From Synechococcus sp. J7-Johnson (GTDB lineage Bacteria; Cyanobacteriota; Cyanobacteriia; PCC-6307; Cyanobiaceae), in contig NZ_JAGQBU010000020.1 in the NCBI RefSeq assembly GCF_024345795.1, positions 1 to 50,506 of the forward strand: DNA of 50,506 bases, written 5' to 3'. Of this stretch, positions 11,969 to 35,124 are shown piece after piece (within the stretch, counting starts at the first letter, position 1; each line of letters opens with the position of its first letter). The position numbers and the translations under genes are program-made. The notes beneath the pieces were generated by a model. The model was not told the DNA's origin. It worked only from the letters and a program-made list of their open reading frames with translations, and made no database searches.

Positions 11969-13118
11969 CGGCAGGCATTCCTGGTTTGGCGTATCCGGCC
12001 GGATCCTCGATGGCCAGCTTCAGGCCGAACACCTGCCTGACGCGGTCGCGCTGGAAATAGATGGTCTCGGGGGTGAAGGAGGCCTGGGCATCGACTTCCG
12101 CCACCCGCGCCGCCAATGGCCGGCGGGGGTCCGAATCCAGGTAGATCCGGGCCTGCTGTCCCAGGCGCACCCGCCCGATCTCCCCCTGGGGAATGAAGCC
12201 GCGCAGGTACACCGTGGCGGGATCCAACAGGGTGAGCAGGGTGCGGCCGCTGGCCACCACGGCGCCGGGCTCGACACTGCGGGAGATCACAACGGCAGCC
12301 AGGGGCGAGTGAATCCTCAGGTAGGCGGCTTCCGCCTTCACCTGCTGCTCAGCCGCCTGGGCGCTGCGCACATCGCTCTGGGCAGCCCGCACCCCGGCCA
12401 GGGCGCGCTGGCGCTGCTCGCTCAGGGCCCGGAGCTGGGCCGAGCGGATCGATGGATTGAGACCCGTCGAAGCCGCCAGGGCCAAGGCGCCGCGGGTCGC
12501 CTCCACCTGGCGCTGCTGGGCGGTCACCGCGGCCTCGGATGTTTCGAGGGCAGTGCGGTCCTGATCGAGCGACTGGGGTGAAGCGGCGCCCTGCCGCACC
12601 AGCGACTCGGTGCGCCCCAGGGTGACCTTCGCCAGGCGTTGCTGGGCCTGGGTCTGGGCCAGCTGGGCTTCGGCACTCGCCAGGTTGGCCCTGGCCTGAT
12701 CCACACGTCCCAAGTTGTCCTGCTCGGCCTGAGCCACGGTCAGGCGGGATTCGCGGATCTGGCTGTCGACCACATCGATCTGGAAGCGGCTCTGGTTCAG
12801 CTGCTGACGAGCGGAGGCCAGCCTTGCCTGGGCACCACGCAGGCGGGCGAGCACCTCCTCGTCGTCGAGGCGAACCAGCAACTGCCCAGCCTTCACGCGC
12901 TCCCCTTCCCGGACCGTGACCTCAGCCACACGGCCGCCGATCCGGGCGCCGAGATCGGTTTCGTAGCCCTCGATCCGCCCGCTCAGCTTCAGGGGGCCGT
13001 CGCTGGATCGTCCCAGCCACAGCCAGCCCGCCAGGCCGGCGGCCGCAAGGGCGAGGCCGGCGCCGATCAGCAGCTGCTGCCGCCTGGACAAGGCGAGGGG
13101 CTGCAACGTCAGGCGCAC
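11946..13118 (-). CDS. HlyD/EmrA-family periplasmic adaptor
   Basis: A 390-residue membrane-fusion protein. One N-terminal anchor helix (LLIGAGLALAAAGLAGWLWLG) is followed by the beginning of the lipoyl/barrel domain (GRVAEVTVREGERVKAGQLL). A long alpha-helical hairpin from about 85 to 235 is rich in A, Q and R, and the second half of the barrel follows. The GTG at 13118 overlaps the end of the pentapeptide gene by ten bases. It should link the inner-membrane ABC exporter to the periplasm or an outer-membrane channel; no TolC gene is in the window. Confidence 0.92.
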   Translation of the reverse strand: MRLTLQPLALSRRQQLLIGAGLALAAAGLAGWLWLGRSSDGPLKLSGRIEGYETDLGARIGGRVAEVTVREGERVKAGQLLVRLDDEEVLARLRGAQARLASARQQLNQSRFQIDVVDSQIRESRLTVAQAEQDNLGRVDQARANLASAEAQLAQTQAQQRLAKVTLGRTESLVRQGAASPQSLDQDRTALETSEAAVTAQQRQVEATRGALALAASTGLNPSIRSAQLRALSEQRQRALAGVRAAQSDVRSAQAAEQQVKAEAAYLRIHSPLAAVVISRSVEPGAVVASGRTLLTLLDPATVYLRGFIPQGEIGRVRLGQQARIYLDSDPRRPLAARVAEVDAQASFTPETIYFQRDRVRQVFGLKLAIEDPAGYAKPGMPADAEILTP

Positions 13119-13792
13119 CCCGAGTCGCCGGCGGGCAGGCGGCTGCCCTCCAGGCAGGCGCCGCTGAGATCGCTGCCGACCAGCTGGCAGTCGCGCAGAT
13201 CACAGCCGCTGAGATCGGCACCGGTCAGATCGGCCTCGCGCAGGTTGGTGCCGTAGAGGCAGGCCCCGCGCAGGCTGGCGCCGCGCAGCTGGGCACCCTG
13301 GAACTGGGCGTAGCTGAGATCAGCACCCTCGAAGTCGGCGCCGCCCAGATCGGTGTGCTGGTCGAGCCCGGAGCGGAAATCGGCCTCCACCAGCCGAGCC
13401 TCGCGCCAGCGGCTGTTGGCGGCCACCACCCCGCGCAGGCAGCAGCGGTGGAGCAGGGCACGGCTGAAATCGGCCCGCTGCAGGCGGGATCCCGAGAGGT
13501 CGGCCTCCTGCCAGCTGGAACCAGCTGCCTGCAGACCGGAGAGATCGGCGCCCCAGATCAGGGCCTGCTGAAAGCTGGCGCCCTCCACATGGGCCTCGCG
13601 CAGGCAGGCATGGCCGAAGCGCGCCTCGCGGAAGCAGCCCAGGCTCAGATCGCAGCCGGAAAGATCGAGGTGGAGGCCGTCGACATCGGGCAGGCGCAGA
13701 CCGATGAAACTGCGGCGGCCACTGGCAAGGGCCTGGCGCAGCTCCTCGATTGAAGTGGGCAGCGGCGGCGGGGGGGTGGCTGTTGTGGTCAT
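13109..13792 (-). CDS. pentapeptide-repeat protein embedded in the efflux operon
   Basis: A 227-residue protein built almost wholly of pentapeptide repeats of the A(D/N)Lxx kind, from about residue 30 to the end (ADFEGADLSYAQFQGAQLRG and similar). These fold as a right-handed beta-helix. It starts with an ATG overlapping the stop of the ArsR gene and runs into the HlyD gene with a ten-base overlap, so all three are translated as one unit. Some pentapeptide proteins protect DNA gyrase (Qnr type), but most cyanobacterial ones have unknown roles. Being inside an efflux operon makes a role in export or resistance plausible, but that is inference. Cysteines punctuate several repeats. Confidence 0.9.
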   Translation of the reverse strand: MTTTATPPPPLPTSIEELRQALASGRRSFIGLRLPDVDGLHLDLSGCDLSLGCFREARFGHACLREAHVEGASFQQALIWGADLSGLQAAGSSWQEADLSGSRLQRADFSRALLHRCCLRGVVAANSRWREARLVEADFRSGLDQHTDLGGADFEGADLSYAQFQGAQLRGASLRGACLYGTNLREADLTGADLSGCDLRDCQLVGSDLSGACLEGSRLPAGDSGCA

Positions 13793-14097
13793 CAGAAAAT
13801 CGCCGCCAGATCATCGAGTTGCTGGCGGCGGGCCGCCAGCAGCAGCTTTTCGGCCTGGGCCATCAGCCGGAACACCCCCTTGTCGATCACGTCGTAGAAC
13901 ACGAGGCTGCCTTCGGGCCGGCGACGCACCACACCGGCGATCATCAGCAACTTGAGGTGCTTCGAGACCAGCGCCTGACTGAGGCCGGTCTTCTCCACCA
14001 CTGCCGTGACATTGAGGGCTCCGGAGCGCAGAGCCTCCAGAACCGTGAGGCGGTTGGGCTCGGAGAACACCTTGAAGTATTCGGCAAGGGCTTCCAT
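13792..14097 (-). CDS. ArsR-family transcriptional regulator without cysteines
   Basis: A 101-residue winged-helix regulator. FKVFSEPNRLTVLEALRSG starts the fold, TGLSQALVSKHLKLLMIAGVV is the recognition helix-turn-helix, and RRRPEGSLVFYDV is the wing. No cysteine and no clear metal-binding site are visible, so it is not a standard arsenite or zinc sensor. The ATG at 14095-14097 is preferred over a TTG at 14130. It heads the pentapeptide/efflux operon (four-base overlap) and is divergent from acsF, so it could control both directions. The effector is unknown. Confidence 0.88.
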   Translation of the reverse strand: MEALAEYFKVFSEPNRLTVLEALRSGALNVTAVVEKTGLSQALVSKHLKLLMIAGVVRRRPEGSLVFYDVIDKGVFRLMAQAEKLLLAARRQQLDDLAAIF

Positions 14098-14228
14098 GGC
14101 GGCGTCACGCGGGAGCACAGGCTGAAACAAACTTTAGCGCGCTGCCGCAGCAACGCTGGAATGCAAAGACGGCTTTTCGTAGTATCATGCTGTCGTTATG
14201 CATTTCGCGTCAGAGCGCACCCCCGCCG
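14098..14228. promoter_or_regulatory. acsF: divergent promoter region between the ArsR operon and acsF
   Basis: 131 bases. On the acsF side TATCAT at 14183-14188 is a good -10 candidate. It overlaps an upstream in-frame ATG (14187), which argues that acsF begins at 14229 instead. On the ArsR side no clear -10 is visible. An ArsR operator would be expected here, but I see no perfect inverted repeat. Confidence 0.35.
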
Positions 14229-15257
14229 ATGACCACCGCCACTGCAGCCCCGGCCACCACCCCGCACCTGCGCGAGGACCTGCTCACGCCGCGCTTCTAC
14301 ACCACCGAGATCGAGAAGGCGGCCCGCACCGACCTCAATGGCCAGCGGCCGGCCTTCGAGGCGATGCTCAACGAAATGGAGGCCGACTACAACCGCGACC
14401 ACTTCGATCGCAAGGCACCGCTGGACCGTCTCAAGGACCTCAGCCCCGAGGAGAAGGAGGCCTATGAGAGCTACCTGGTCCGCTCCTGCGTGTCGGAGTT
14501 CTCGGGATTCCTGCTGTTCAAGGAACTCTCCAGGCGCCTCTTCCAGGCGGAGCGCCCCGAGCTCGGACGCCTGTTCCAGCTGATGGCGCGGGATGAGGCC
14601 CGCCATGCCGGCTTCCTCAACCGGGCGCTGGTCGCCGAGGGCATCACGCTCGATCTGCCCAAGCTCAGCACCAGGCGGCCGATCACCTGGTTCCCGCTCA
14701 GCTGGGTGCTCTACAGCGTGTTTCTTTCCGAGAAAATAGGCTACTGGCGTTACATCCTGATCGATCGCCATCTCAAGGCGAGTCCAGATAATAATTTTAC
14801 GCCGCTGTTTGATTTCTTCGAACCCTGGTGCCAGGACGAGAACCGCCACGGCGACATCTTCAACATGCTGATCCGTTGCTGGCCCGGCCTGCGCCATGGC
14901 CTGCGCGGACGGCTGCTCAGCCGCTTCTTCCTCTGGAGTGTGTTCCTCACCCACAGCCTGACGGTGTGCGAGCGGGGCGACTTCTACCGTCTGCTGGGCA
15001 TGGATCCCGCCGCCTTCGATGCCGAGGTGATGCGCCAGACCAACCGCACCGCCCGCCGCGCCTTTCCCTGGGTGTTCGACCTGGAGGGCAGCCGCTACCT
15101 GGAACTGCGCGACCGGATGGTGGCCTGCCACCGCGAGCTGCAGGCCGGCAAGGTCGAGGGCGCCGGCCCCCTGAGCCAACTGGGTCGGCGGCTGCGCTTC
15201 GGGCAGCTGCTGCTCCAGCAATTCCTGCAGCCGATGGTTCCGGCTTCAGCGGCATGA
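14229..15257 (+). CDS. acsF: Mg-protoporphyrin IX monomethyl ester (oxidative) cyclase AcsF/ChlA
   Basis: The di-iron oxygenase that makes the isocyclic ring of protochlorophyllide in chlorophyll synthesis, at the membrane. At 342 residues the length is usual. TPRFYTTEIEKAA and EFSGFLLFKELSRRL are typical. Two iron-binding segments are visible, MARDEARHAGF and CQDENRHGDIF, each with the E..H pattern. It starts at ATG 14229 (MTTATAAP); 14187 would add 14 residues over the promoter. Cyanobacteria often carry two copies, one for low oxygen; from sequence alone I cannot say which this is, but the ArsR neighbour and the HO-HemN fusion downstream suggest the regulated copy. Its TGA overlaps the next ATG. 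Confidence 0.95.
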   Translation: MTTATAAPATTPHLREDLLTPRFYTTEIEKAARTDLNGQRPAFEAMLNEMEADYNRDHFDRKAPLDRLKDLSPEEKEAYESYLVRSCVSEFSGFLLFKELSRRLFQAERPELGRLFQLMARDEARHAGFLNRALVAEGITLDLPKLSTRRPITWFPLSWVLYSVFLSEKIGYWRYILIDRHLKASPDNNFTPLFDFFEPWCQDENRHGDIFNMLIRCWPGLRHGLRGRLLSRFFLWSVFLTHSLTVCERGDFYRLLGMDPAAFDAEVMRQTNRTARRAFPWVFDLEGSRYLELRDRMVACHRELQAGKVEGAGPLSQLGRRLRFGQLLLQQFLQPMVPASAA

Positions 15258-26420: not shown

Positions 26421-26442
26421 GGCGGGTGAGGGGTGGCGAGCG

Positions 26443-26491
26443 CGTTGCAACGAAAACGCAACGACAGGACAGCATGACAACAGTAACGTTA
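26443..26491. promoter_or_regulatory. palindromes upstream of the HO-HemN fusion gene
   Basis: CGTTGCAACG (26443-26452) is a perfect 10-bp palindrome. GCAACG repeats eleven bases later (26458-26463), and TAACGTTA (26484-26491) is another palindrome beside a TTATAC that could be a -10. They lie 70 to 120 bases before the preferred start of the fusion and just before the divergent gene. A regulator-binding role is inferred from position only. Confidence 0.35.
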
Positions 26492-26560
26492 TACCGTTTG
26501 CCGCAGGGCGCCCTCCCGGGGTGCCGCTCTCATTTCGGCACCTTTTCGGCACCCTTCGTC

Positions 26561-28621
26561 ATGACCAGCACCCTCCCTGAAGCTGTTTCCGGCGCCATTT
26601 CCGACCACGCCAGGCCAGCGGATGTCGCCGCCCGCAAGGGTTTCGGACCCCGGGTGCGGCGTCTGCACGCCCGCATCGGCGCCGCCCACCACAAAGCGGA
26701 GGGCATGGACTTCTCCCGTGCACTCCTGGCGGGTCAGGCCAGCCCGCTGCAGCTGGCGGGCCTGATCCGCGCGCTCGGCCCCGCCTACGCGCTGATCGAG
26801 CAAACCGGCCCCGAACTGGCAGCAGCCCTTGGCGCCCCCGACCTTCCCTGGAGTGCCCTCAGCCGCAGCGAGGCCCTGCGCCACGACGTGGCCCTGCTGG
26901 CCGGCATCGAAGCCAGCGGACCCTCAGCCGCGGCCCAGGCCTGGCTGGGTCACCTCGGCAAACTCGCCCAGCAGGCACCGCACCGCTTCCTTGCCCATGT
27001 GTATGTGCGCTACGGCGGCGATCTCTCCGGCGGGCAGCAGCTGGCCCAGCAGGCCAACGCGATCCTGGCCGCCCATGGTCTGCCCTCCCTGCGCTTCTGG
27101 CAGTTCGAGCGGCCGATCCCAGACCTGAAGCAGGCCCTCCACGACGCCTTCGAGCAGCTCGAGCTCAGCGAAGCCGAGGAAGCGGAGCTCCTGGAGGAAG
27201 CGGTGACCGCCTTCCTCGACACCCAGAGCCTGCTGGCCGAGCTGGGCGAACTCACCACGCCCCGAGCGGATCCGCTCCCCCTGCTGCTCAAGTACGACAA
27301 GCCCGTTCCCCGCTACACCAGCTACCCCACCGCCGCGGCGTTTCACGACGGCGTGGGTCCTGCCGACCTGGTGAACCAGCTGGGGCAGGCGAGCACGGCC
27401 GATCTCTCGCTCTACGTGCACGTGCCCTTCTGCCGCCATGCCTGCTGGTACTGCGGCTGCAACCGAATCACCACCCAGGCCGGCTCGGCCGTGGTGGGGC
27501 CCTATCTCGAGGCTCTGGCCAAAGAGCTGACGCTGGTGTCCCAGGCCTCGGGCCGGCGCAGGCGGCTGGGGCAGTTGCACTGGGGTGGCGGCACGCCCAA
27601 CTACCTCAACTCCCAGGAGCAGGGCCAACTCTGGGATCTGATCGGGGAGCAGCTGGACCTGGCGCCCGACCTGGAGGCCTCGATCGAGGTGAATCCGGAG
27701 TTCCTCAGCCGTGATCAGGTGCTGGAGCTGCGCCGTCTGGGCTTCAACCGGATCAGCTTCGGAATCCAGGATGCCGACCCGAACGTGCAGGCGGCCGTGA
27801 ACCGGATCGTGCCGGTGGAGCAGCTCCGGCGGGCGATGGAGTGGATGCGGGAGGCGGCCTTCGAGAGCGTGAATGTCGATCTGATCTGCGGGCTGCCTCT
27901 GCAGACCCCCGAGCGGTTCGCCCGCACCATCGCCCTGGTGCGGGAGCTGCGGCCCGACCGGGTGTCGCTGTTCAGCTTCGCCTACCTGCCCGAGCAGCTG
28001 CCCATGCAGCGCAAGATCGCCGCCGACGATCTCCCCAGCCAGCGGGAGCGGATCCGGATGTTGCAGCACGCCTTCACCGCCTTCACAGGCGATGGCTACG
28101 ACGCCATCGGCATGGACCACTTCGCCCTTTCAAGCGACAGCCTGGCGGTGGCGGCGCGGCAGGAGCGGCTGCACCGCAATTTCCAGGGGTACACCACCGG
28201 CGGCGAGCGCGACCTGCTCGGCATCGGCGTGACGGCGATCAGCCAGTTCCAGAATCTGTTCAGCCAGAACCAGCGCTCACTCAAGGCCTATGTCCAGGCC
28301 CTCGACGAGGGACATCTGCCCGTGGAGCGGGGCCTGGTGGTGCGGGATCCCGAGGTGCTGCTGCGGCGCTCGATCATTCAGAGCCTGATGTGCCACTTCG
28401 CGGTGGATTTCGACACCATCGCCCTGGGGCAACCCCTTGAGGCGAAGCGCCAGTTCGCCAGCGAGTGGGCCGAGCTGCAGATCCTCGAAGCCGACGGACT
28501 GGTGCGGCTGGGGGCCAACAGCCTGGAGGTGACGGAAGTGGGCCGCTGGTTGATCCGCACGATCGCGGCGGTGTTCGACCCCAGCCAGCGCCGCCAGGCC
28601 AGTGGGTCGCGACTGATCTGA
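26561..28621 (+). CDS. heme oxygenase - HemN fusion protein
   Basis: One uninterrupted 686-residue frame. Residues about 30-215 are a heme oxygenase. LHARIGAAHHKAEGMDFSRAL gives the proximal heme histidine (H43), and AHVYVRYGGDLSGGQ (about 145-159) is the family's distal helix with its conserved Gly and Asp. Residues about 240-686 are HemN, the oxygen-independent coproporphyrinogen III dehydrogenase. PVPRYTSYPTA starts it, the radical-SAM cluster is HVPFCRHACWYC (Cys 291, 295, 298, plus Cys 300), and then come LHWGGGTPNYL, IEVNPEFL, RISFGIQD and NVDLICGLP. The two activities oppose each other, one making heme precursor without O2, the other opening heme to biliverdin. In other cyanobacteria ho2 and hemN are separate genes of a low-oxygen operon. 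Start: ATG 26561 is preferred over 26426 and 26474, which would add unconserved residues. Confidence 0.9.
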   Translation: MTSTLPEAVSGAISDHARPADVAARKGFGPRVRRLHARIGAAHHKAEGMDFSRALLAGQASPLQLAGLIRALGPAYALIEQTGPELAAALGAPDLPWSALSRSEALRHDVALLAGIEASGPSAAAQAWLGHLGKLAQQAPHRFLAHVYVRYGGDLSGGQQLAQQANAILAAHGLPSLRFWQFERPIPDLKQALHDAFEQLELSEAEEAELLEEAVTAFLDTQSLLAELGELTTPRADPLPLLLKYDKPVPRYTSYPTAAAFHDGVGPADLVNQLGQASTADLSLYVHVPFCRHACWYCGCNRITTQAGSAVVGPYLEALAKELTLVSQASGRRRRLGQLHWGGGTPNYLNSQEQGQLWDLIGEQLDLAPDLEASIEVNPEFLSRDQVLELRRLGFNRISFGIQDADPNVQAAVNRIVPVEQLRRAMEWMREAAFESVNVDLICGLPLQTPERFARTIALVRELRPDRVSLFSFAYLPEQLPMQRKIAADDLPSQRERIRMLQHAFTAFTGDGYDAIGMDHFALSSDSLAVAARQERLHRNFQGYTTGGERDLLGIGVTAISQFQNLFSQNQRSLKAYVQALDEGHLPVERGLVVRDPEVLLRRSIIQSLMCHFAVDFDTIALGQPLEAKRQFASEWAELQILEADGLVRLGANSLEVTEVGRWLIRTIAAVFDPSQRRQASGSRLI

Positions 28622-31672: not shown

Positions 31673-32803
31673 ATGGCCGTCGCTCCCGCCAGTTCCTTTT
31701 CCCTCGCTGCCGCAGCTGGAGGCAACCCCCTGCTGTTCCGCCAGCTCTTCGATGCCGACACCGGCACCTTCACTTACCTGATCGCCGAGGTGGCCAGCGG
31801 CCAGGCCCTGCTGATCGATTCGGTCTTCGAGCAGCACGACCGTGATCTCGCCCTGATCCAGGAGCTGGGCCTGCAGCTGGTGGCCTGCCTCGACACCCAC
31901 GCCCACGCCGACCACGTGACCGGCAGCTGGCTGATGCACGCCGCCACCGGCAGCGCCATTGGCCTGGCCGCCACTGTCGGCGCCGAGAACGTGACCCTGC
32001 CCCTGCGACACGGTGATCGGGTGGCCTTCGGCGGCCGCACGCTGGAGGTACGCGCCACCCCCGGCCACACCGACGGCTGCCTCACCTTCGTGCTCGACGA
32101 CCACAGCCTGGCCTTCACCGGTGATGCCCTGCTGGTGCGGGGCTGCGGCCGCTGCGACTTCCAGCAGGGCAATCCTCACACCCTGTTCCGCTCGATCACC
32201 GAGCAGATCTTCTCGCTGAGCGAGCACTGTCTGCTCTACCCCGGCCATGACTACATCGGCCGCAGCGTCACCTCCGTGACCGAGGAGAAGGCCTACAACG
32301 CCCGCCTCGGCGGAGAGGCCGATGAGCGCGACTTCGTCGGCTACATGGAGAACCTGGAGCTGCCCCATCCGCGCCGGCTTGCGGAAGCCCTGCCCGCCAA
32401 TCTGCGCAGCGGCCGGCCCCTGGCCAGCACTCCCGATGCCGATGACTGGGCTCCGATCCAGCGCAGCTATGCCGGCCTGCCCCAGCTGAGACCCCGATGG
32501 GTGCAGAAGCACCACGACGACCTCTGCCTCGTGGACGTGCGCTCAGCCGAGGAATTCAACGGCCCCGATGGTCGGATCTCAGGAAGTCTGTTGATTCCGT
32601 TGCCGGAGCTGGAGCGGCGGCTGGGCGAGATCCCAGCAGAGCTCCCGGTGGTCGTGCTCTGCCATTCCGGCAGCCGTTCGGCCCTGGCCACCCAGGAGCT
32701 GATCAAGGCTGGCCGACCACAGGTGGCCAACCTGCGCGGTGGCCTGCGTGCCTGGCAGCGGGAAGGTCTTCCCTTGGAGCACAACAGCCCCAACCCTTTC
32801 TGA
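31673..32803 (+). CDS. persulfide dioxygenase-rhodanese fusion (ETHE1/Blh-PRF type)
   Basis: 376 residues. The N-terminal 240 residues are an ETHE1-type metallo-beta-lactamase fold with THAHADHVTGS, ATPGHTDGCLTFVLDD, LAFTGDALLVRGCGR and LYPGHDY, the iron-binding pattern of glutathione persulfide dioxygenase. Residues about 270-376 are a rhodanese domain with active-site Cys in VVLCHSGSRSA. Together they oxidise glutathione persulfide to sulfite and transfer sulfane sulfur. It is the first gene of a rhodanese-TauE set that could pass sulfite or thiosulfate out of the cell. Intact, start ATG 31673. Confidence 0.93.
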   Translation: MAVAPASSFSLAAAAGGNPLLFRQLFDADTGTFTYLIAEVASGQALLIDSVFEQHDRDLALIQELGLQLVACLDTHAHADHVTGSWLMHAATGSAIGLAATVGAENVTLPLRHGDRVAFGGRTLEVRATPGHTDGCLTFVLDDHSLAFTGDALLVRGCGRCDFQQGNPHTLFRSITEQIFSLSEHCLLYPGHDYIGRSVTSVTEEKAYNARLGGEADERDFVGYMENLELPHPRRLAEALPANLRSGRPLASTPDADDWAPIQRSYAGLPQLRPRWVQKHHDDLCLVDVRSAEEFNGPDGRISGSLLIPLPELERRLGEIPAELPVVVLCHSGSRSALATQELIKAGRPQVANLRGGLRAWQREGLPLEHNSPNPF

Positions 32804-32812
32804 GCCAGCACC

Positions 32813-33355
32813 ATGACCTCCCCGACCTCAGCTCAGCTCAGCCCCGTTCGGTTGAGCCCCCTCGACCTCAGCCGCCAGCACGGTGAACACAGGGTCACGG
32901 TGATCGACGTGCGCGAGCCGATGGAATACGTGGGCGGCCATATTCCCGGCAGCCACAACATCCCGCTCTCCCGCCTCGGCAGCGCCACCCTCCCCTCAGG
33001 GCCGCTGGTGCTGGTCTGCCAGAGCGGCACTCGCAGCGAGAAGGGCCTTGCCCAACTGCTGCGCGCGGGCCATCCTTATCCTCTCGCCGACCTCGAAGGC
33101 GGCATGAGTGCCTGGCAGCAGGCAGGCCTGCCGATGAAGCGACGCCAGGGCGCGCCCCTGCCGCTGATGCGCCAGGTGCAGATCGCCGCCGGCAGCCTGG
33201 TGCTGCTTGGAGTGATCCTCAGCCAGACCGTGTCCCCGGGCTGGATCTGGCTGTCGGGCTTCGTTGGGGCTGGCCTCACCTTTGCCGGCATCAGCGGCTT
33301 CTGCGGCATGGCCCGTCTGCTGGCCGCCATGCCCTGGAACCGGGTGCGGGCGTGA
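32813..33355 (+). CDS. rhodanese with C-terminal membrane anchor (YgaP-like)
   Basis: 180 residues. A rhodanese domain (about 15-108) has VTVIDVREPMEYVGGHIPGS and active-site loop VLVCQSGTRSEK. Two C-terminal helices (LVLLGVILSQTVSPGWIWLSGFVG) match the DUF2892 pair of YgaP. Sulfur transferase at the inner membrane. Nine bases after the dioxygenase gene; overlaps the TauE start (GTGA). It may hand persulfide to the dioxygenase or the exporter. Confidence 0.9.
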   Translation: MTSPTSAQLSPVRLSPLDLSRQHGEHRVTVIDVREPMEYVGGHIPGSHNIPLSRLGSATLPSGPLVLVCQSGTRSEKGLAQLLRAGHPYPLADLEGGMSAWQQAGLPMKRRQGAPLPLMRQVQIAAGSLVLLGVILSQTVSPGWIWLSGFVGAGLTFAGISGFCGMARLLAAMPWNRVRA

Positions 33356-34779: not shown

Positions 34780-35124
34780 TCAGGCCGCCTGCAGCTGCAG
34801 TAGCTGGGCCTCAAGCCGCTGCCTGAGGCGTCCCTGCACCAGAGTGCAGAGTTCCTCCACCAGCTCGTCATCGGCGGAGTAGATCAGGCGGGAGCCGTCA
34901 CGTTCGCAGCGCACCAGGCCAGCGCGCTGAAGCTGCCCCAGCTGGCGGCTGATGTGCGACTGACTGAACCCGGTGGTCTTGATCAGGCTGGAGACATCCG
35001 TGGGCTCAGAGCGCAGCAGGCAGAGCAGCTGCAGGCGAGCCGGCTCACTCAGCAGCCGGAAAAAGCGGCTGATTTCCTCCATCAGCTCTGGGCTGGGCCT
35101 GGCTACATCCGCGAAAGCGCCCAT
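34780..35124 (-). CDS. ArsR-family regulator, BigR/SqrR-like (sulfane-sulfur sensor candidate)
   Basis: 114 residues. FFRLLSEPARLQLLCLLRSEP starts the winged helix, TGFSQSHISRQLGQLQRAGLV is the recognition helix, and RCERDGSRLIYSA is the wing. Cysteines at 35 and 93 are placed as in BigR and SqrR, where a pair in helices alpha2 and alpha5 forms a tetrasulfide and releases DNA. A third is at 73. It lies beside the persulfide dioxygenase-rhodanese-TauE genes, which are the usual targets. Sensing is therefore a good inference, not proof. The AT-rich stretch just upstream (TAATTAT) may be its own operator. Confidence 0.85.
   Translation of the reverse strand: MGAFADVARPSPELMEEISRFFRLLSEPARLQLLCLLRSEPTDVSSLIKTTGFSQSHISRQLGQLQRAGLVRCERDGSRLIYSADDELVEELCTLVQGRLRQRLEAQLLQLQAA

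Follow-up and report, generated by a model that had tools for sequence, protein, structure and literature searches.

Why would a cyanobacterium build one protein from two pigment-synthesis enzymes with opposite relations to oxygen? Coproporphyrinogen III dehydrogenase (HemN) is killed by O2, heme oxygenase (HO) requires it, and cyanobacteria switch on both enzymes when oxygen is low; we know of no mechanistic answer to the question of why ho and hemN sit together. The window analysed here, the whole stretch of 50,506 nucleotides from Synechococcus sp. J7-Johnson, carries an HO-HemN fusion gene (26561..28621, forward strand), identified by Pfam, NCBIfam, PDB sequence and fold matches. Our best reading, to which we give a probability of about 0.72, is that the gene encodes a low-oxygen two-enzyme pair, fused from adjacent ho and hemN genes and made in a fixed ratio.

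The initial annotation of this DNA, made from the letters alone, knew of no experimental description of such a protein. This is consistent with an open-access full-text search, most subscription journals lying outside its scope, in which no paper describes an HO-HemN fusion by its title or the start of its abstract; the available parts of PMC10151467, PMC5295598 and PMC4500134 contain no mention of one. HO has also been joined to a second enzyme in the HO-1/cytochrome P450 reductase entries 6j79, 6j7a and 6j7i, but to judge from their titles these are laboratory constructs with the reductase, whereas HemN is not a redox partner of HO.

The fusion gene and its product

The gene is a single open frame of 686 amino acids with no internal stop, in which an HO domain is followed by a short loop and a complete HemN. 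The initial annotation had proposed an uninterrupted fusion of these two enzymes, and the profile searches agree: the N-terminal part scores as a heme oxygenase (PF01126, 82.6 bits at residues 35-219, cut-off 23) and the C-terminal part as HemN (TIGR00538, 505 bits, cut-off 324.95). The motifs quoted there are likewise present, with H43 in AAHHKAEG, GGDLSGGQ at residues 152-159 and CRHACWYC at 291-298. No stop or frameshift lies between the domains, either in this gene or in relatives from independent assemblies. Because the uninterrupted fusion is also found in related isolates that were assembled separately, the frame is not an assembly or sequencing artefact.

The ATG at 26561 aligns with an ATG in all 11 rows of the upstream and start alignment, the window being one of them; an earlier in-frame GTG lies upstream, at 26426. 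The AlphaFold2 model of the protein has a mean pLDDT of 89.5, with high confidence inside the domains, and a pTM of 0.68, which leaves open how the two halves are placed relative to each other. In the model the interdomain loop (residues 231-238; 27251..27274, forward strand) runs between helices 204-230 and 239-244, and its residues 233-235 have a pLDDT below 50. The linker of the window holds no in-frame ATG, GTG or TTG, the closest in-frame starts being GTG codons at residues 215 and 265; initiation at residue 215, which has a purine-rich stretch ahead of it, may yield a HemN with a short extra helix. Among relatives, in-frame starts lie near the junction in L035 (GTG at 236), L039 (TTG) and L111 (ATG at 242), where a separate HemN start may exist inside the fused gene.

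The HemN domain

The HemN domain covers residues 239-680 (27275..28600, forward strand), as delimited by TIGR00538, by alignment to residues 10-448 of E. coli HemN (1olt) and by fold. The structural alignment (VIA-align) to 1olt has a Z score of 50.0 over fusion residues 234-676, with 44% identity over 432 aligned residues. Pfam Radical_SAM matches residues 285-459 with 80.6 bits (cut-off 29.5), and HemN_C reaches 20.2 bits, just under its cut-off of 24. The HutW, HemW and HemZ models all stay below their own cut-offs on the fusion protein; anaerobic heme degradation of the HutW/ChuW type by the radical-SAM half was considered and rejected (153 bits, cut-off 400).

Alignment places the CxxxCxxC radical-SAM motif at C291, C295 and C298 (27431..27454, forward strand). 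All 12 positions checked, which we chose as presumed cluster and SAM-site residues, are equal to those of E. coli HemN (Y285, C291, C295, C298, C300, E376, Q403, R415, D440, F541, Q542 and I560), so that this half is predicted to have coproporphyrinogen III dehydrogenase activity. The E. coli enzyme differs at its N-terminus, where a short stretch precedes residue 10 and the fusion has the HO domain instead.

The heme oxygenase domain

The HO domain covers residues 29-230 (26645..27250, forward strand), on the basis of the PF01126 match and the structural alignment to HO-1. Its fold is confirmed by VIA-align to rat HO-1 (1dvg; Z 25.4, rmsd 2.5, 206 residues, over fusion residues 28-234), and the top HO among PDB sequences is HmuO of Corynebacterium diphtheriae, over fusion residues 38-230. 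HmuO and mammalian HO-1 are the best HO matches, with about 30% identity and Z scores of about 24-25; in contrast to both, the fusion has a histidine, H194, in place of an arginine, a conserved N-terminal GPRVRxLH stretch and an attached HemN.

These features were followed across 34 HOs of the fusion type, aligned with 21 further HO1-like sequences from cyanobacteria and 12 hemN-adjacent HOs of other cyanobacteria (HO2). H43 (26687..26689, forward strand), the proximal heme ligand by alignment, falls at residue 20 of HmuO, and its position is His in 34/34 HOs of the fusion type and in 33/33 HO1 and HO2 sequences. E47, R150, G153, D154, G157 and G158 are also invariant in the 34, and K190 is kept in 33; the aligned distal-helix motif GGDLSGGQ lies at 27014..27037 (forward strand). 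The GPRVRxLH stretch is conserved in the fusion-type HOs and lacking in HO1 and HO2. H194 (27140..27142, forward strand) replaces by alignment an arginine found in all 12 HO2 and all 21 HO1 sequences, and is His throughout the 34; the corresponding residue of the genome's own HO1 is R173. We take the replaced residue to correspond to R183 of HO-1, the arginine holding a heme propionate. The title of a PDB entry connects mutation of R183 with where the heme is cleaved. The histidine at this position may bear on which biliverdin isomer the fusion HO would form.

In the HO tree, the HOs of Cyanobiaceae ho-hemN loci form one group on a very long branch, outside HO1 and HO2 together. A second HO tree, whose bootstrap did not settle, included the only 3 of 26 non-cyanobacterial HO loci that passed the profile filter. 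The initial annotation had compared the fusion with the neighbouring ho2 and hemN genes of known cyanobacteria. Derivation of the fusion from an adjacent low-oxygen ho-hemN pair is supported; an ordinary HO2 the oxygenase is not, given its place in the tree and H194 where HO2 has Arg. Synteny points to a changed HO2 and the tree points elsewhere, and with such long branches we are unsure between them: the HO half appears to be a divergent, uncharacterised type with an altered heme pocket, and an accelerated HO2 is also conceivable. The domain would open heme to a biliverdin, the product being uncertain because the arginine of all compared HO1 and HO2 sequences is absent and the branch is so long.

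A single further HO is present in the source genome (2.99 Mb, 68 contigs, 99.96% complete), a typical HO1 of 270 bits, together with one HemF, each in a separate gene. A second HemN was not found in it, two further matches being HemW (234.8 bits, above cut-off) and a MiaB/RimO-type stretch. The fusion is thus the sole HemN found in this genome and an accessory HO.

Genomic setting and putative low-oxygen control

A second Mg-protoporphyrin ester cyclase gene, acsF2/chlAII (14187..15257, forward strand; TIGR02029, 355 bits, cut-off 192.5), sits 11 kb upstream of the fusion gene, the main acsF being on another contig. Divergent from acsF2 is a gene for an ArsR-family regulator (13792..14130, reverse strand; HTH_5, 35.4 bits; HTH_metalloreg, 72 bits). 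Neighbours were counted among 73 loci in stored flanks of at most 6 kb, often cut, and all neighbour counts are to be read within this limit: an acsF2 homologue lies upstream of ho-hemN in 44/73 loci, the ArsR gene is in the flank of 31/73, and the next gene (13109-13792) has a homologue there in 28/73.

This setting recalls the chlAII-ho2-hemN cluster of Synechocystis 6803 and Synechococcus 7002, where a second AcsF, a second HO and HemN are likewise close together. According to the available part of PMC4500134, the cluster is switched on by ChlR in low O2 in both organisms; HemN and HO2 help in low O2, whereas HemF and HO1 serve in air. In these organisms, as in the genome studied here, the aerobic set is present as well. 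The differences are that ho and hemN are here one gene, that the HO is not a close relative of HO2, that acsF2 is 11 kb away, and that the regulator next to acsF2 is of the ArsR type and not, like ChlR, of the MarR type. We infer that the locus is the picocyanobacterial counterpart of the low-oxygen set, and it is possible that the ArsR-type protein is the low-oxygen regulator in place of ChlR. In a table of PMC4500134, hemN and ho2 are absent from all marine Synechococcus and Prochlorococcus strains shown.

The promoter region contains, in the upstream alignment, an inverted repeat, GTTGCAACGAAAACGCAAC (26444..26462, forward strand), and a dyad, ACAGTA-N6-TACCGT (26480..26497, forward strand), which is conserved in the upstream regions of relatives and is a candidate operator of the fusion gene. 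The pattern ACRGTA-N6-TACCGT occurs within two mismatches ahead of ho-hemN in 42 of 65 relatives, a count that leaves out L052 and L104 (shuffled sequences: mean 0.28, at most 2), and in four of the nine fused rows. A second repeat, GTTGCAACGAAANCGCAAC, is found near the dyad in the window and in the relatives' upstream regions. Across the source genome the dyad has one forward site, and so has a reversed control pattern. In 36 acsF2 upstream regions the dyad was found in none within two mismatches, so that shared control of the fusion gene and acsF2 is unsupported.

Further along the window (31673-33355 and 34780-35124) are genes for a metallo-beta-lactamase/rhodanese protein, for a rhodanese that has a membrane part and for another regulator of the ArsR type. 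Genes of each of these kinds lie near ho-hemN in 7/73 loci and possibly serve sulfur detoxification.

Distribution among relatives

Proteins with both domains were recovered from relatives within the Cyanobiaceae. Of the 73 GTDB loci, 62 named loci have both halves, which are fused in seven and encoded by adjacent separate genes in 55; among these 55 split pairs, 13 are already in frame. The other 11 are cut-off contigs, HemN of other phyla or products of decay, and have no HO part in the stored DNA. The fused copies include those of Synechococcus sp. 1G10, Cruz-7E5 and CS-1329, titled as isolates, and of the MAG CZS48M. The split pairs of the Cyanobium/Synechococcus relatives BSA11S and L045 encode the same proteins in the same order and on the same strand, with up to 90% identity, and differ in having a stop and a spacer between the two genes.

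In a sample of 400 genomes of the family, the locus is present in at least 87, with at least nine fused among the matches listed (G000, which is the source genome, G001, G002, G006, G007, G063, G258, G273 and G280). In a sample of 386 genomes of the phylum, 116 match at E <= 1e-60 and only the source genome has a fusion, a count that leaves out matches starting before residue 232, such as those of G531 (202), G439 (214) and G630 (215). In the phylum of G740, HO was detected in 37 of 299 genomes, mostly in frames of about 200-280 amino acids, this survey of frames leaving out G957 (680 aa) and G762 (623 aa); a longer frame of 508 amino acids in that phylum, L174, has the HO domain alone. Among plasmid records, none covers 80% of the query. 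Within the genomes searched, the fusion is restricted to the Cyanobiaceae.

Comparisons of fused with fused copies gave dN/dS values of 0.14-0.39 in both halves, and both are under purifying selection; the fused/split pair L045-L036 has a value of 0.48 in the HO half.

Repeated origin of the fusion

The HemN tree has 88 rows, of which nine are fused, 70 split and nine undecided. The fused rows fall into four regions (the window group, L039, L041, and L052 with L111), all of which have split rows next to them. A tree of both halves, built from 40 loci, agrees with the HemN tree, and on each of them the fewest changes number five by parsimony, which does not distinguish gain from loss. A single fused clade for all nine rows was rejected (AU test, p 3.1e-5), as was a clade of L039 with L041 (p 0.004). 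When L001, L034, L035, L036 and L037 were held together without the split L045, the p value was 0.116; since a single clade for the window group is thus not rejected, we count at least four origins and not five. That group may go back to two fusions, or to a single one if L045 was split again or is misplaced in the trees. The fusion appears, from these trees, to have arisen in at least four lineages of the Cyanobiaceae, and with independent fusions in one family, physical linkage of the two enzymes is evidently tolerated, perhaps even favoured.

In junction alignments the stop codon of ho, the intervening spacer and the hemN ATG are all missing from fused copies, which differ from split copies by deletions, not by single-base changes. 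In the other families sampled the spacer is longer and no fusion was seen. The conserved TQ/NQ in the last HO helix is separated from the PVPR of HemN by 31 residues in the window clade, L039 and L052/L111, compared with 33 in L041, 39 in L036 and 41 in L037. The recurrence of one length in three lineages may point to a preferred geometry, though other lengths occur.

Why the two enzymes were joined

HemN makes protoporphyrinogen IX, on which protoporphyrinogen oxidase and ferrochelatase act before heme reaches HO. Substrate channelling, the first benefit offered by the initial annotation, is weak on this ground: with two enzymes in between, no direct hand-over from HemN to HO is expected, and the pathway rules it out. 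The other two benefits offered there, a fixed ratio and co-regulation of the halves, are plausible. Under our favoured reading, four or more lineages of the Cyanobiaceae would each have lost, in frame, the ho stop codon, the spacer and the hemN start codon. The HO half would convert heme to a biliverdin, consuming O2 and presumably reduced ferredoxin, and both halves would act at low O2, alongside the HO1 and HemF that serve in air. The benefit of fusing would most likely be a single translation unit, with the two activities in a fixed 1:1 amount and as one regulated product.

A chance deletion can fuse neighbouring genes that are in frame, and the repetition may therefore reflect opportunity. 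A serious rival, though one we would bet against, is that such in-frame deletions between co-transcribed neighbours confer no new property and were tolerated owing to a loose HO C-terminus and HemN N-terminus. It suits the prevalence of separate adjacent genes (55/62 named loci, some already in frame) and the scattered, young fusions, with the split L045 inside or beside the window group; but it has to accommodate at least four independent fixations in one family and none in the other families sampled, and also a purifying selection that persists on both halves. Natural matched pairs, such as the fused 1G10 or Cruz-7E5 and the split BSA11S, could be used to measure the effect of linkage.

Another idea, which we consider unlikely, is local protection: the HO half would remove O2 close to the HemN cluster, sharing ferredoxin with the HemN half, and let HemN survive more O2. 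A short loop does tie the O2-consuming domain to the O2-sensitive one, and the repeated fusion with equal spacing in three lineages would fit. According to the available part of PMC4500134, an O2-scavenging role has been put forward for HO in strict anaerobes. However, heme limits HO turnover, O2 diffuses freely and a single domain is therefore a weak sink; moreover, three of the five linkers are equal in length but the others are 2 to 10 residues longer. The more ambitious form of this idea, a repeatedly evolved, self-protecting radical-SAM enzyme with a new HO type, a linker length under selection and HemN activity extended to microoxic conditions, seems doubtful.

It is more improbable still that the fusion serves heme feedback, the HO half acting chiefly as a heme binder whose signal to HemN would slow coproporphyrinogen use once heme has been made downstream. 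Retention of the heme ligand while one Arg became His in 34/34 sequences could be read in this way; against it, D154 and GGDLSGGQ, which we take to be needed for turnover in known HOs, are kept. A sequencing or assembly error that deleted a stop codon has a negligible probability, as the same junction recurs in the separate assemblies of 1G10 and Cruz-7E5 and fused copies differ from split ones by deletions rather than by single-base changes.

Irregular loci

A few loci depart from the fused and split types. In L106 and L027 (Synechococcus sp. RedBA-s, G005) there are short HemN remnants, the HO half was not found and the neighbours are kept; the ho-hemN locus appears to be decaying there. The MAG WB8_1B_136 (also G273) contains the fused L052 and the split L064, which belong to different lineages, and thus has either two copies or a mixed bin. 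Finally, L083 and L087 are titled Bifidobacterium breve and Prochlorococcus marinus MIT 9215, yet their ho-hemN DNA is Cyanobium-like, and they are probably misnamed MAGs.
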